This document shows, in pieces, positions 11,333 to 31,605 of a stretch of 64,000 nucleotides of DNA. A program made the position numbers and the translations under genes. The notes under the pieces are model-generated. The model saw only the letters and a program-made list of their open reading frames with translations, did not search any database and was not told the DNA's origin. Source of the stretch: Streptomyces sp. NBC_01235 (GTDB taxonomy: Bacteria; Actinomycetota; Actinomycetes; Streptomycetales; Streptomycetaceae); NCBI RefSeq assembly GCF_035989285.1, contig NZ_CP108513.1, positions 6,014,001 through 6,078,000 of the forward strand. The letters are read 5' to 3'. Numbering within the stretch: position 1 is the stretch's first letter; every line of letters starts with the position of its first letter.

Positions 11333-12874
11333 TCAGCGACCGTTCGTGCCCGTGCGGTTGCCGTTCCCGCCACCGTTACCGGCGCTGTTTCCGTTGCCCT
11401 TGGCAGGAGCGCGGCGGCGGCCCTGGGAGGTCGGTCGACCGCCTTGGGAGGTGGTCCGGCCGCCCTGCGCGGCGGGGCGGCCGCGGCGGGCGCGCGGGGC
11501 GGAACCCGAGCGCTCGGTGCGCTTCTCCGCGGTGGGCGGCGGGGTGAGGACGACGGGCACGCCCGAGGGCGCCTGCGCGCCGGTGATACGGCTCAGCTCG
11601 GTGCCGCCGGAGCGGACCCGGGTGGTCTGCGGGGTGATGCCGGCGTCGGCCATCAGCCGCGTCATCTCCCGCCGCTGGTGGGGCAGGACCAGCGTGACGA
11701 CGGTGCCGGACTCGCCGGCGCGTGCCGTACGGCCGCCGCGGTGCAGGTAGTCCTTGTGGTCGCCGGGCGGGTCGACGTTGACGACGAGGTCGAGGTTGTC
11801 GACGTGGATGCCGCGGGCCGCGACGTTGGTCGCCACCAGCACCGTGACGTGGCCGTCCTTGAACTGGGCCAGCGTCCGCGTGCGCTGGTTCTGCGACTTG
11901 CCGCCGTGCAGGGACGCCGCGCGCACGCCGACCGCCAGCAGCTTCTTGGCCAGCCGGTCCGCCGCGTGCTTGGTGTCCAGGAACATGATCACGCGTCCGT
12001 CGCGGGCGGCGATCTCCGTCGTCGTGGCGTGCTTGTCCTCGTCCTCGACGTGCAGCACGTGGTGCTCCATCGTCGTCACCGCGCCCGCGGACGGGTCGAC
12101 GGAGTGCACGACCGGGTCGTGCAGGTAGTTGCGCACCAGCCGGTCGACGTTGCGGTCCAGGGTCGCCGAGAACAGCATGCGCTGGCCGTCCGGACGCACC
12201 TGGTCGAGCAGTTGCGTCACCTGCGGCATGAAGCCCATGTCGGCCATCTGGTCGGCCTCGTCGAGGACGGTGATGCCGACCCGGTCCAGCCGGCAGTCGT
12301 CCCGGTCGATGAGATCCTTGAGCCGGCCGGGCGTGGCCACGACCACCTCGGCGCCGGCGCGCAGCGCGCTCGCCTGCCGGCCGAGCGACAGACCGCCGAC
12401 CACCGTGGCGATCCGCAGCCGCAGCGCACGGGCGTAGGGGGTGAGGGCGTCGGTGACCTGCTGGGCCAGTTCCCGGGTGGGGACGAGGACCAGGGCCAGC
12501 GGCTGCCGGGGCTCGGCCCGCTGCCCGTCCATCCGGGCCAGCATGGCGAGGCCGAAGGCGAGGGTCTTGCCGGAGCCCGTGCGGCCACGGCCCAGGACGT
12601 CCCGGCCGGCCAGCGAGTTCGGCAGCGTCGCGGCCTGGATCGGGAACGGGGTGATGACGCCTTCGGTGCCGAGGGCGGCCAACAGCCGCTCCGGCATGTC
12701 GAGTTCGGTGAACGCCTCGACCGGCGGCAGCCCCGGGGTGAGGGTGACGGGCAGGGCGAACTCACCGCCGGACGCGGCGGGACGACTCGGGCGTCCGTTC
12801 CGGCCGGCGGGCTTGGCCGAACGGGAGGGAGCGGCGCCGCCCCGGCGGGAGCGGACGGAGCTGTTGCGGTTCAT
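11333..12874 (-). CDS. DEAD-box ATP-dependent RNA helicase (cold-shock type), copy 1
   Basis: A protein of 513 residues. The start at 12874 (MNRNSSVRS) has a GAGGAAGG ribosome binding site; an upstream ATG at 12922 has none. Motifs in order: Q-motif FPIQAATLP, motif I GRGRTGSGKT, Ia PTRELAQQ, Ib TPGRLKDL, II LDEADQ (DEAD is DEAD-Q), III SATLD, V TNVAARGIHVDNLDLV, VI HRGGRTARAGESG. The tail is Gly/Asn/Arg-rich and low complexity, typical of RNA-binding extensions. It lies behind a csp gene in the same orientation. It unwinds RNA and probably helps ribosome assembly or decay in the cold. Its leader hairpin covers the ribosome binding site. Confidence 0.95.
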   Translation of the reverse strand: MNRNSSVRSRRGGAAPSRSAKPAGRNGRPSRPAASGGEFALPVTLTPGLPPVEAFTELDMPERLLAALGTEGVITPFPIQAATLPNSLAGRDVLGRGRTGSGKTLAFGLAMLARMDGQRAEPRQPLALVLVPTRELAQQVTDALTPYARALRLRIATVVGGLSLGRQASALRAGAEVVVATPGRLKDLIDRDDCRLDRVGITVLDEADQMADMGFMPQVTQLLDQVRPDGQRMLFSATLDRNVDRLVRNYLHDPVVHSVDPSAGAVTTMEHHVLHVEDEDKHATTTEIAARDGRVIMFLDTKHAADRLAKKLLAVGVRAASLHGGKSQNQRTRTLAQFKDGHVTVLVATNVAARGIHVDNLDLVVNVDPPGDHKDYLHRGGRTARAGESGTVVTLVLPHQRREMTRLMADAGITPQTTRVRSGGTELSRITGAQAPSGVPVVLTPPPTAEKRTERSGSAPRARRGRPAAQGGRTTSQGGRPTSQGRRRAPAKGNGNSAGNGGGNGNRTGTNGR

Positions 12875-12882
12875 TCGGAACC

Positions 12883-12909
12883 TTCCTCGATGCGGCACGT
12901 ATCGAGGAA
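12883..12909 (-). promoter_or_regulatory. Leader hairpin sequestering the helicase RBS, copy 1
   Basis: In the mRNA, TTCCTCGAT pairs with ATCGAGGAA (9 bp, 9-nt loop). The 3' arm contains most of the GAGGAAGG ribosome binding site. The second helicase has an equivalent hairpin with changed but still complementary arms. Confidence 0.7.
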
Positions 12910-12979
12910 TTCCTCCCGACATGAGGATTCACAAGAATGAGCCGAAAAATACAAACAAATACGCGGCAGAACGCCATGA

Positions 12980-13014
12980 GCCGGGGCTCGCACTACGAGA
13001 GTGCGAGCCCCGGC
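12980..13014 (-). terminator. Terminator of csp copy 1
   Basis: A perfect 15-bp inverted repeat (GCCGGGGCTCGCACT and its complement) with a 5-nt loop lies 28 bp after the csp stop. A T-rich stretch follows further downstream. It separates csp from the helicase, so the helicase probably has its own promoter or is reached by read-through. Confidence 0.9.
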
Positions 13015-13042: not shown

Positions 13043-13246
13043 TCAGGCGGGAACGATGTTCTCGGCCTGCGGGCCCTTCTGGCCCTGCGTGACGTCGAAG
13101 GTAACCTTCTGGCCTTCCTGAAGCTCGCGGAAGCCCTGGGTGGCGATGTTCGAGTAGTGGGCGAAGACGTCGGGGCCGCCACCCTCCTGCTCGATGAAGC
13201 CGAAGCCCTTTTCCGCGTTGAACCACTTCACGGTGCCAGATGCCAT
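13043..13246 (-). CDS. Cold-shock domain protein, copy 1
   Basis: A protein of 67 residues, a single CspA-type OB fold. RNP1 is KGFGFIEQ and RNP2 is VFAHYSNI. It is an RNA/ssDNA chaperone. RBS AGGGAGA lies before the ATG at 13246. The leader contains a conserved hairpin. It is 57 of about 67 residues or more identical by eye to copy 2 at 31631. Confidence 0.95.
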
Positions 13247-13272
13247 ATTGAATCTCCCTTGGGGCAGTGCCC

Positions 13273-13294
13273 GGTGTCCGCACCTTGCGGACCC
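13273..13294 (-). promoter_or_regulatory. csp copy 1 leader hairpin
   Basis: The leader of csp contains GGGTCCGCA and TGCGGACACC, able to pair with one bulged base. The element ends about 26 nt upstream of the start codon. The csp at 31631 has an equivalent hairpin at 31861-31884 with different outer pairs. Long structured leaders are usual for cold-shock genes. Confidence 0.6.
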
Positions 13295-29922: not shown

Positions 29923-31422
29923 TCAGGCCGCCGGATCGACGGCGGGCCGCTGCCGCGTCGTCGTCCTGCGTCGGCCCGCCTCCGCCGAGGGCCGGCCGCC
30001 CTGCCCGCCCCGGCCGCGACTGCCCCGGGAAGCGGAAGAGGTGCCCGCGCGCCGGGGACGCTTCTCGGCGGCCGGTGCGGTGATGACGACCGGGACGCCG
30101 GACGGGGCCTGGGCGCCCGTGATGCGGCTCAGTTCCGCCTCGCCCGAACGCACCGGGGTGATCCGGGGGGAGATGCCGGCCGTGGCCATCAGCCGGCTCA
30201 TGCCGCGCCGCTGGGCGGGGGTCACCAGGGTGACCACGCTGCCGGACTCGCCGGCGCGGGCGGTACGGCCGCCGCGGTGCAGGTAGTCCTTGTGGTCGCT
30301 GGGCGGGTCGACGTTGACGACGAGGTCGAGGTTGTCGACGTGGATGCCGCGCGCGGCGACGTTGGTCGCCACCAGCACCGTCACATGACCGCTCTTGAAC
30401 TGGGCGAGGGTGCGGGTGCGCTGCGGCTGGGACTTGCCGCCGTGCAGGGCCGCGGCGCGCACGCCGCTGCTGAGCAGGTGCTGGGTCAGCCGGTCCACCG
30501 CGTGCTTGGTGTCCAGGAACATGAGCACCCGGCCGTCGCGCGCCGCGATCTCGGTGGTCGTGCGGTGCTTGTCGGCGTCGTGCACATGGAACACGTGGTG
30601 CTCCATCGTGGTGACCGCGCCGGCCGACGGGTCGACGGAGTGCACCACCGGGTCGCTGAGGTAGCGGCGGACGAGCAGGTCGACGTTGCGGTCGAGGGTG
30701 GCGGAGAACAGCATCCGCTGACCGTCGGTGCGCACCTGGTCGAGAAGTTCGGTGACCTGGGGCATGAAGCCCATGTCGGCCATCTGGTCGGCCTCGTCGA
30801 GGACGGTGATGGCGACATCGGCGAGGCGGCAGTCGCCGCGGTCGATGAGGTCCTTCAGCCGGCCCGGCGTCGCGACGACGATCTCAGCGCCGTTGCGCAG
30901 CGCACTGGCCTGCCGGCCGAGCGACATTCCGCCGACGACGGTCGCCAGGCGCAGCCGCAGGGAGCGGGCGTACGGGGTGAGCGCGTCGGTGACCTGCTGG
31001 GCGAGCTCGCGGGTCGGGACGAGGATGAGGGCGAGCGGCTGGCGGGGCTCGGCACGCCGGCCCTGCGTACGGGCCAGCACGGCGAGGCCGAAGGCGAGGG
31101 TCTTGCCCGAGCCGGTGCGGCCACGGCCGAGCACGTCACGGCCGGCCAGGGAGTTCGGCAGGGTCGCCGCCTGGATGGGGAACGGCACGCTCACACCCTC
31201 GTGGCCGAGCGCGGCCAGCAGCGGTTCCGGCAGGCCGAGGTCGGCGAACGCCTCGACGGCGGGCAGTGCGGGGGTGATCGTCTTCGGCGGCGCGAATTCG
31301 CCCTGGAGTGCGGCCGGGCGGCGTCCGTGGCCGGCGGAGCGGCGCGGAGCGCTGCCTCCGAAACGGCTGCCCGCCGAGCTCGCGAAACGGTCGTATGTGC
31401 GGTTATTTCGTGCACGATTCAT
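29923..31422 (-). CDS. DEAD-box ATP-dependent RNA helicase (cold-shock type), copy 2
   Basis: A protein of 499 residues. Motifs: FPIQAATLP, GRGRTGSGKT, PTRELAQQ, TPGRLKDL, LDEADQ, SATLD, TNVAARGIHVDNLDLV, HRGGRTARAGESG. It is highly similar to the helicase at 11333 through the core, with different N- and C-termini. The C-terminal tail is Arg/Gly/Ser-rich. The start at 31422 has GGAAGG upstream, inside a leader hairpin. It follows csp copy 2 in the same direction. Confidence 0.95.
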   Translation of the reverse strand: MNRARNNRTYDRFASSAGSRFGGSAPRRSAGHGRRPAALQGEFAPPKTITPALPAVEAFADLGLPEPLLAALGHEGVSVPFPIQAATLPNSLAGRDVLGRGRTGSGKTLAFGLAVLARTQGRRAEPRQPLALILVPTRELAQQVTDALTPYARSLRLRLATVVGGMSLGRQASALRNGAEIVVATPGRLKDLIDRGDCRLADVAITVLDEADQMADMGFMPQVTELLDQVRTDGQRMLFSATLDRNVDLLVRRYLSDPVVHSVDPSAGAVTTMEHHVFHVHDADKHRTTTEIAARDGRVLMFLDTKHAVDRLTQHLLSSGVRAAALHGGKSQPQRTRTLAQFKSGHVTVLVATNVAARGIHVDNLDLVVNVDPPSDHKDYLHRGGRTARAGESGSVVTLVTPAQRRGMSRLMATAGISPRITPVRSGEAELSRITGAQAPSGVPVVITAPAAEKRPRRAGTSSASRGSRGRGGQGGRPSAEAGRRRTTTRQRPAVDPAA

Positions 31423-31430
31423 GCAGAACC

Positions 31431-31458
31431 TTCCTTGTAGCGGGCGCGTGACAAGGAA
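31431..31458 (-). promoter_or_regulatory. Leader hairpin sequestering the helicase RBS, copy 2
   Basis: In the mRNA TTCCTTGT pairs with ACAAGGAA (8 bp), with a further GCG/CGC pairing inside the loop. The 3' arm holds part of the AAGGAAGG ribosome binding site. Relative to copy 1, both arms have changed together (CTCGAT/ATCGAG against CTTGT/ACAAG). Confidence 0.7.
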
Positions 31459-31569
31459 TTCCGCAGCTGGAGGAACGGCGCAGAGAATCGCGAGAACGTG
31501 CCGAAAACGGGGTGGAGAGGAGGAAGAGCGAGAGTGGAGCGCGGGGAGGAATCACCCGGAAACGAAGCG

Positions 31570-31605
31570 AGCTGGGGCCCGCACCCCAAGGTGCGGGCCC
31601 CAGCT
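31570..31605 (-). terminator. Terminator of csp copy 2
   Basis: A perfect 16-bp stem (AGCTGGGGCCCGCACC and its complement) with loop CCAA, 26 bp after the csp stop. It is in the same position as the terminator of copy 1 but differs in sequence. Confidence 0.9.

Follow-up and report, generated by a model that had tools for sequence, protein, structure and literature searches.

Results

Two csp-helicase gene pairs share a hairpin in the helicase leader

The window analyzed here is a 64,000-nucleotide stretch of the 11.09 Mb genome of Streptomyces sp. NBC_01235. On its minus strand lie two gene pairs in which a cold-shock protein gene (csp) precedes a gene for a DEAD-box RNA helicase, termed helicase 1 and helicase 2 (Table 1), and both pairs display the same order of csp, terminator-like inverted repeat without T run, helicase leader and helicase. 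The repeat at 12980..13014 was not called by the terminator scan, which requires a T run. NCBIfam yielded no specific subfamily for the helicases, the top models (DbpA, CshA and RhlE types) remaining far under their cut-offs. The genome harbors a third csp-helicase pair (L087), absent from the initial annotation, with the same leader. Inspection by eye revealed a transposase-like gene on the opposite strand upstream of this third pair (L087 3909-4449), as well as a structured-looking leader of csp itself, with GGGCACUGCCCC or a similar sequence directly 5' of the csp SD, in the window (13244-13290, minus strand), in L087 (3309-3420, minus strand) and in some relatives. An ATG at 12922, upstream of the helicase leader hairpin, is in frame with helicase 1; automatic annotation may therefore begin this gene 16 codons early, masking the leader.

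Table 1 Genes and leader features of the two csp-helicase pairs in the window
Feature	Position	Strand	Basis
Cold-shock protein gene upstream of helicase 1, 67 aa	13043..13246	-	Pfam CSD 107 bits
15-bp inverted repeat after csp of helicase 1, terminator-like, without T run	12980..13014	-	Sequence
P1 hairpin, helicase 1: 5' arm 12909-12901 UUCCUCGAU, 3' arm 12891-12883 AUCGAGGAA	12883..12909	-	Sequence, fold, model R1
P1 apical loop GUGCC, helicase 1	12894..12898	-	Substitution counts, 182 sequences
SD GAGGAAGG of helicase 1, mostly within P1 3' arm	12881..12888	-	Sequence
P2, weaker hairpin: GGUUC (12882-12878) with GAACC (12872-12868), AUG in loop and closing pair	12868..12882	-	RNAalifold consensus, pair tables
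Helicase 1 start codon ATG	12874-12872	-	
Helicase 1, DEAD-box RNA helicase, 513 aa	11333..12874	-	Pfam DEAD 153.5 bits, Helicase_C 96.8 bits
Cold-shock protein gene upstream of helicase 2, 67 aa	31631..31834	-	Pfam CSD 105.2 bits
Terminator-like inverted repeat after second csp gene	31570..31605	-	Sequence
Extended P1, helicase 2: UGCGGAA (31465-31459) can pair with UUCUGCA (31428-31422), up to A of AUG	31422..31465	-	Sequence, fold with similar extension
P1 hairpin, helicase 2: 5' arm 31458-31451 UUCCUUGU, 3' arm 31438-31431 ACAAGGAA	31431..31458	-	Sequence, fold, model R1
Helicase 2 start	31422	-	
Helicase 2, DEAD-box RNA helicase, 499 aa	29923..31422	-	Pfam DEAD 149.8 bits, Helicase_C 95.9 bits

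The hairpins that the initial annotation had placed in the two leaders (P1) were confirmed in the sequence. On the plus strand the arms read TTCCTCGAT (12883-12891) and ATCGAGGAA (12901-12909) for helicase 1, and TTCCTTGT (31431-31438) and ACAAGGAA (31451-31458) for helicase 2. In mRNA sense the 5' arm is UUCCU(C/U)G.. in both leaders, and the 3' arm, AUCGAGGAA in helicase 1 and ACAAGGAA in helicase 2, runs on into the SD (GAGGAAGG and AAGGAAGG, respectively), in agreement with the proposal that it carries the ribosome binding site. With the A of the start codon as position 0, P1 pairs -35..-27 with -17..-9, plus -25 and -24 with -19 and -20. The arms were also said to differ between the copies and yet remain complementary, which is correct for two pairs changed on both sides (C-G to U-A and A-U to U-A, including a double change at -28/-16 in helicase 2), while a third pair is lost in helicase 2. 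The GAA/UUC part of the extended P1 of helicase 2 has a predicted pairing probability of 0.97. As a general feature this extension was rejected, since its mean pairing probability exceeds 0.5 in only 10 of 182 sequences and none of five tested pairs was significant; it is kept for helicase 2 only.

Isolated leaders of 47 and 49 nt fold at -19.8 and -19.5 kcal/mol (z = -3.3 and -3.4), and 1 of 200 shuffles for helicase 1 and 2 of 200 for helicase 2 fold equally well. In a longer context (86 and 91 nt) the z scores weaken (-1.8 and -1.0), and the native fold is matched by 10 and 35 of 200 shuffles. Single leaders are therefore not decisive, and the case rests on the comparison with relatives.

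Arms and loop of P1 are conserved and the SD is predicted to be occluded

We counted substitutions per site by parsimony on the helicase tree (182 sequences). The P1 5' arm (9.2), the SD arm (8.5) and the loop (11.0) change far less than the leader just upstream (45.4) and the third codon positions of the helicase core (26.9), and approach its first codon positions (8.0). Initiation does not need the 5' arm, so that conservation at this level calls for pairing or a bound ligand. The apical loop follows the pattern GNGCC, whose first G and last C can pair, and is almost invariant save for the hypervariable N (substitutions at -24 G, 1; -23 N, 42; -22 G, 1; -21 C, 9; -20 C, 2; 182 sequences), which may suggest a specific ligand. 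Arm spacing ranges from 12 to 36 nt among the 171 elements matched by a simple motif, 112 of which have 14 nt. Many of these spacings are not multiples of three, and hence the leader is not coding. A conserved GUG or AUG in the loop, as part of a short upstream reading frame or an N-terminal extension, was likewise considered and rejected, as its middle base changed 42 times and the spacing is not in triplets.

Base pairing of the SD within the leader hairpin is a prediction of the folding model. The consensus register of P1 has a predicted probability above 0.5 in 160 of 182 sequences and below 0.3 in 19, some of these owing to misalignment or another register. For the segment -40..-6 at 30 °C, the hairpin reaches a predicted median of -14.1 kcal/mol, the weakest being -5.3 kcal/mol. 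Predicted SD accessibility lies below the mean of versions with a shuffled 5' part in 142 of 146 elements, which are related sequences and not independent, and the mean unpaired probability of the SD is 0.158 compared with 0.375 after shuffling. Taken singly, the three leaders of the own genome are less distinct, 15, 25 and 15% of 20 shuffles hiding the SD equally (the two window leaders and L087, respectively).

A second, weaker hairpin may cover the start codon

A further possible partner of the conserved GGAAGGTTC is the start-codon region, a pairing absent from the initial annotation. The RNAalifold consensus pairs GGUUC at -8..-4 with GAACC at +2..+6 around the AUG (P2). P2 is kept in 95% of cells (140 sequences), its predicted probability being 0.35 in the helicase 1 leader and above 0.5 in only 89 of 182 sequences. 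Some leaders carry a matching change where codon 2 is AGC instead of AAC (GGCUC in L087 and L042), and P2 is kept with a G.U pair alone in L158, L165, L172 and L176. At least one P2 pair is lost where codon 2 is AAG (L055, L058, L151, L168, L221 and L241). We consider P2 likely but not proven, with weaker support than P1. Elsewhere, the search for further GGAAGGTTC-ATG sites in the own genome returned four in total, two of them the window leaders; L081 and L082 show no such hairpin by eye and were taken for chance.

Covariation in the leader is modest

The covariation that the initial annotation read from the two copies was only partly recovered among relatives. A targeted, tree-based test returned 3 of 17 pairs at nominal p ≤ 0.03, uncorrected for the 17 tests: -27/-17 (p = 0.002), -30/-14 (p = 0.007) and the P2 pair -6/+4 (p = 0.03). 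No significant pairing excess was found by this test for the other 14 pairs. At -30/-14, the 182 sequences comprise 83 CG, 53 UG, 34 UA and 8 CA states. On the tree of 140 sequences, five double pair-to-pair changes fall in P1 (0-2 in slid controls) and three in P2 (0 in slid controls).

Alignment A1 is made of 61 distinct leaders from 80 relative loci (the best 80 of 574) and the three own-genome leaders. Its cells pair in 94.7% of cases compared with 27.9-49.5% when slid, and the covariation score of 0.154 (0.118 when shuffled) was reached by none of 500 shuffles. A single inner pair accounts for 13 of the 16 doubly changed cells, and the number of A1 pairs changed on both sides (3) did not rise above shuffles (136 of 500).

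An alignment-wide, R-scape-like scan (G test, substitutions re-placed on the helicase tree, 140 sequences, 71 columns) identified no significant P1 or P2 pair, its top pairs being mostly neighbouring or upstream columns. Swapping arms between members in a duplex test was not significant either, own arms beating the mean swap in 101 of 164 cases; among 21 diverged helicases, own arms reach -17.74 kcal/mol compared with -17.21 kcal/mol when permuted, and 1946 of 20000 permutations were as low. Because the SD is fixed, its partner can hardly vary, and covariation tests have little power here. The 14 non-significant pairs, the failed scan and the arm swap still count against strong covariation, and covariation is modest.

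The element is linked to the helicase gene

The closest helicase relatives are mostly Streptomyces (76 of the best 80 of 574). A covariance model (R1) built from the 61 + 3 leaders of A1 matches the window at 12869-12925 (73.5 bits, helicase 1) and 31417-31475 (54.8 bits, helicase 2). Its only other match in the own genome, at 72.1 bits, likewise lies at a csp-helicase pair, the next best scoring 15.9 bits; an R1 search for a wider regulon in this genome thus found none beyond the three helicases, which are close paralogues. Of the 80 relative loci (best 80 of 574), 72 score at least 30 bits with R1. Among the 40 genomes listed for the own genus in an evenly drawn class sample, the element occurs in 36, the own genome being one of these (E ≤ 0.01). 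It is present in 100 of 121 genomes and 14 of 17 genera of family f1 (E ≤ 1e-5), which we take for Streptomycetaceae judging by its named relatives. Beyond this family, a helicase preceded by the element was seen in a Nonomuraea (L079), and two other families contribute five genomes (G180, G299 and G315; G095 and G196). Fifteen other class matches of 21.7-28.9 bits (L184, L187-L190, L192-L201) lack an adjoining helicase and look like noise. One locus of this group, L188, displays at 1501-1562 a strong inverted repeat, TTCCTTGAC..GTCAAGGAA, inside TCAAGA..TCTTGA.

For genomic context, we kept 188 elements: 149 R1 matches carried forward (75 + 74) minus L179, which has no start codon, plus 40 chosen from the family f1 search, all 40 before a helicase, with loci L202-L211 of that search left out. 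These counts leave aside the 15 helicase-less class matches, reverse-strand echoes, the second match in L005, class matches with E above 0.0012, and G326 and G353, which lie slightly on the stronger side of that limit. A helicase lies downstream, on the same strand and in frame with the chosen start, in 187 of the 188, a figure that depends on the choice of rows, as L149 was kept and L179 dropped and both lack a helicase start behind the element. A csp gene within 1 kb upstream accompanies 174 of the 188; the element therefore follows the helicase rather than the csp gene. Helicase trees were built first without L119, L120, L147 and L149, and then without L149 alone. The two orphan leader copies, both at 1501-1557 of their loci, differ in context: L179 has a csp gene upstream and no helicase behind, and L149 no recognisable helicase downstream.

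Replaced arms and losses in divergent members

In some members the outer arm has been replaced and the SD is nevertheless covered without a gap, by GCCUUCCUC pairing with GAGGAAGGC (L178, L180, L181 and L185; L174 is similar). Another replaced arm, CCUUCCUC, occurs in genus g150 of family f1 (L218, L219, L223 and L226), with the SD still covered. Together with the conserved 5' arm and loop, the low predicted SD accessibility and compensatory changes in several lineages, these replacements bear out the earlier view of a selected RNA structure that sequesters the ribosome binding site. We regard selection on leader structure across species as well supported by these sequence comparisons.

An R1 match of at least 30 bits is absent from 8 of the 80 close relatives (best 80 of 574), including L001-L004 and L007, whose helicases are 92, 83, 91, 92 and 87% identical. 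In these five the P1 5' arm is gone and the csp terminator abuts the ribosome binding site. Judged from such genomes, the element is dispensable and can be lost. Other pairings are predicted to cover their start codon (AUG unpaired 0.03-0.17, SD unpaired 0.43-0.47). After the csp terminator of L002, L003 and L007 (~2460-2510), CGGUUCAU perfectly complements AUGAACCG at the start codon; in L001 and L004 the two are mismatched. This pairing is possibly a replacement lock in members without the P1 5' arm.

Discussion

We propose that the leader is a cis-acting translational lock, in which the conserved P1 blocks the SD and an RNA-remodelling activity opens or sets the lock, and give this reading a probability of about one half. 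With the ribosome binding site expected to be hidden in a conserved hairpin, further helicase synthesis would probably require the cell to unfold the RNA actively. Likewise, a strong SD covered by a hairpin of roughly -14 kcal/mol points to slow default translation that depends on an active opener. Helicase translation would be low by default, and the leader would need active remodelling, most likely by an RNA-unwinding or chaperone activity. The opener may be the helicase itself (autogenous control), with which the close linkage of element and helicase is compatible; both its identity and the sign of its effect are what we infer. Alternatively, the cold-shock protein from the gene upstream might act in a feed-forward manner. 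The GNGCC loop would serve as a recognition site for a bound protein or RNA, and P2 may also cover the start codon in many members. A more elaborate model, which we put forward tentatively and expect to fail rather than hold, casts the leader as a helicase-sensing riboregulator: it would be a built-in substrate of the helicase or the upstream cold-shock protein, translation would report free RNA-unwinding capacity, GNGCC would be a docking site, and the hairpins at SD and start codon would form two gates.

In the autogenous leaders of ribosomal proteins, a conserved structure at the gene of an RNA-binding product acts on translation initiation. The helicase leader resembles these in its conserved structure; its product is a helicase, for which binding or rRNA mimicry is hypothetical. 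By analogy, the helicase or a partner might bind the GNGCC hairpin and hold it closed when helicase is in excess. The gene behind the element would then encode its presumed ligand in 187 of the 188 kept cases; in the own genome the element occurs at helicases only, namely all three close paralogues. A loop that is near-invariant apart from a single hypervariable base likewise suggests that a ligand binds there. There is also a precedent for helicase autoregulation in Synechocystis, where expression of the cold-related RNA helicase gene crhR is autoregulated (PMC3485376). Set against this, the bare hairpin is already predicted to be stable at its median energy, which makes a repressor seem unnecessary, and we consider such negative control doubtful. 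Reports on crhR place its control at transcript accumulation, RNase E, processing of the rimO-crhR operon and protein stability (PMC3485376, PMC10989914). The two cases have in common an RNA helicase gene, with the autoregulation established for crhR being proposed for the present leader, and differ in the conserved SD-occluding hairpin, none being described for crhR in the available text of these papers (PMC3485376, PMC10989914). One of them states that control of RNA helicase expression 'has not been well characterized' (PMC3485376).

A plain constitutive attenuator, setting a low fixed translation rate or serving unregulated protection or processing of the mRNA, for instance against or by a nuclease, is unlikely. 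Loss of the element in some lineages means that a fixed tuning role could be enough. A low rate is, however, easily obtained with a weak SD, and the combination of strong SD, strong block and near-invariant loop suggests switching.

Zipper-type thermometers such as FourU and ROSE hold the SD in a hairpin before a stress gene. The present consensus has no run of four U against the SD, and its median stem is predicted to remain closed in the physiological range. The cspA leader thermosensor of enterobacteria (Rfam RF01766) is a leader structure in a cold-shock gene set, a setting shared by the csp-helicase pairs, and no such Rfam match was found in the window or in low-threshold scans of the leaders. 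The initial annotation had raised control by temperature, and an SD-sequestering hairpin in a cold-shock gene pair does invite the idea of a stem that melts on warming and so makes the SD accessible. Heat shock of S. coelicolor raises the translational efficiency of six csp genes, including SCO3731, as their transcripts fall (PMC6009599); the helicase is not named in the available main text of that study (PMC6009599). A DNA-methylation study gives SCO3732 the annotation DEAD/DEAH helicase (PMC10148868). For helicase 1, predicted SD accessibility indeed rises from 0.02 at 10 °C to 0.21 at 37 °C, a partial exception, while its AUG closes on warming, predicted accessibility dropping from 0.63 to 0.14 between 10 and 45 °C. 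Helicase 2 is flat (SD unpaired 0.26-0.29 from 10 to 65 °C), and across 146 elements the energy model gives a median SD unpaired probability of 0.166 at 10 °C, 0.174 at 42 °C and 0.195 at 60 °C. Such near-flat accessibility from 10 to 60 °C speaks against direct melting, and we hold an RNA thermometer to be very unlikely.

Least probable of all is a DNA operator or promoter part whose likeness to a ribosome-binding-site hairpin is incidental: the arms also form a DNA palindrome and protein binding would be compatible, but the excess of U.G (53) over C.A (8) at -30/-14 favours RNA, the variable arm spacing (12 to 36 nt in 171 elements) keeps no fixed half-site distance and would hardly be tolerable for a dimeric DNA-binding protein, and the position is tied to SD and start codon, even though P1 as a whole shows only a weak wobble asymmetry, with 42 changes to G.U and 36 to A.C.

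No Rfam family reached its gathering score in the window, and low-threshold scans of three leaders returned one hit, three hits and none, every hit falling far short of its gathering score. We found no description of this leader element in the open-licence literature searched. Leaders that sequester the SD are a known kind, of which the present family seems to represent a new variant, set apart by its link to a DEAD-box helicase and its near-invariant loop. Should the riboregulator reading be true, this would be, to our knowledge, the first case in actinomycetes of a conserved leader family devoted to a DEAD-box helicase. If it locks the start site of its own helicase, this short and widely conserved element would be useful as a reporter of RNA-unwinding capacity in antibiotic-producing Streptomyces, and as a simple system, with a defined natural target, for testing whether opening is the work of an RNA helicase or of a cold-shock protein.
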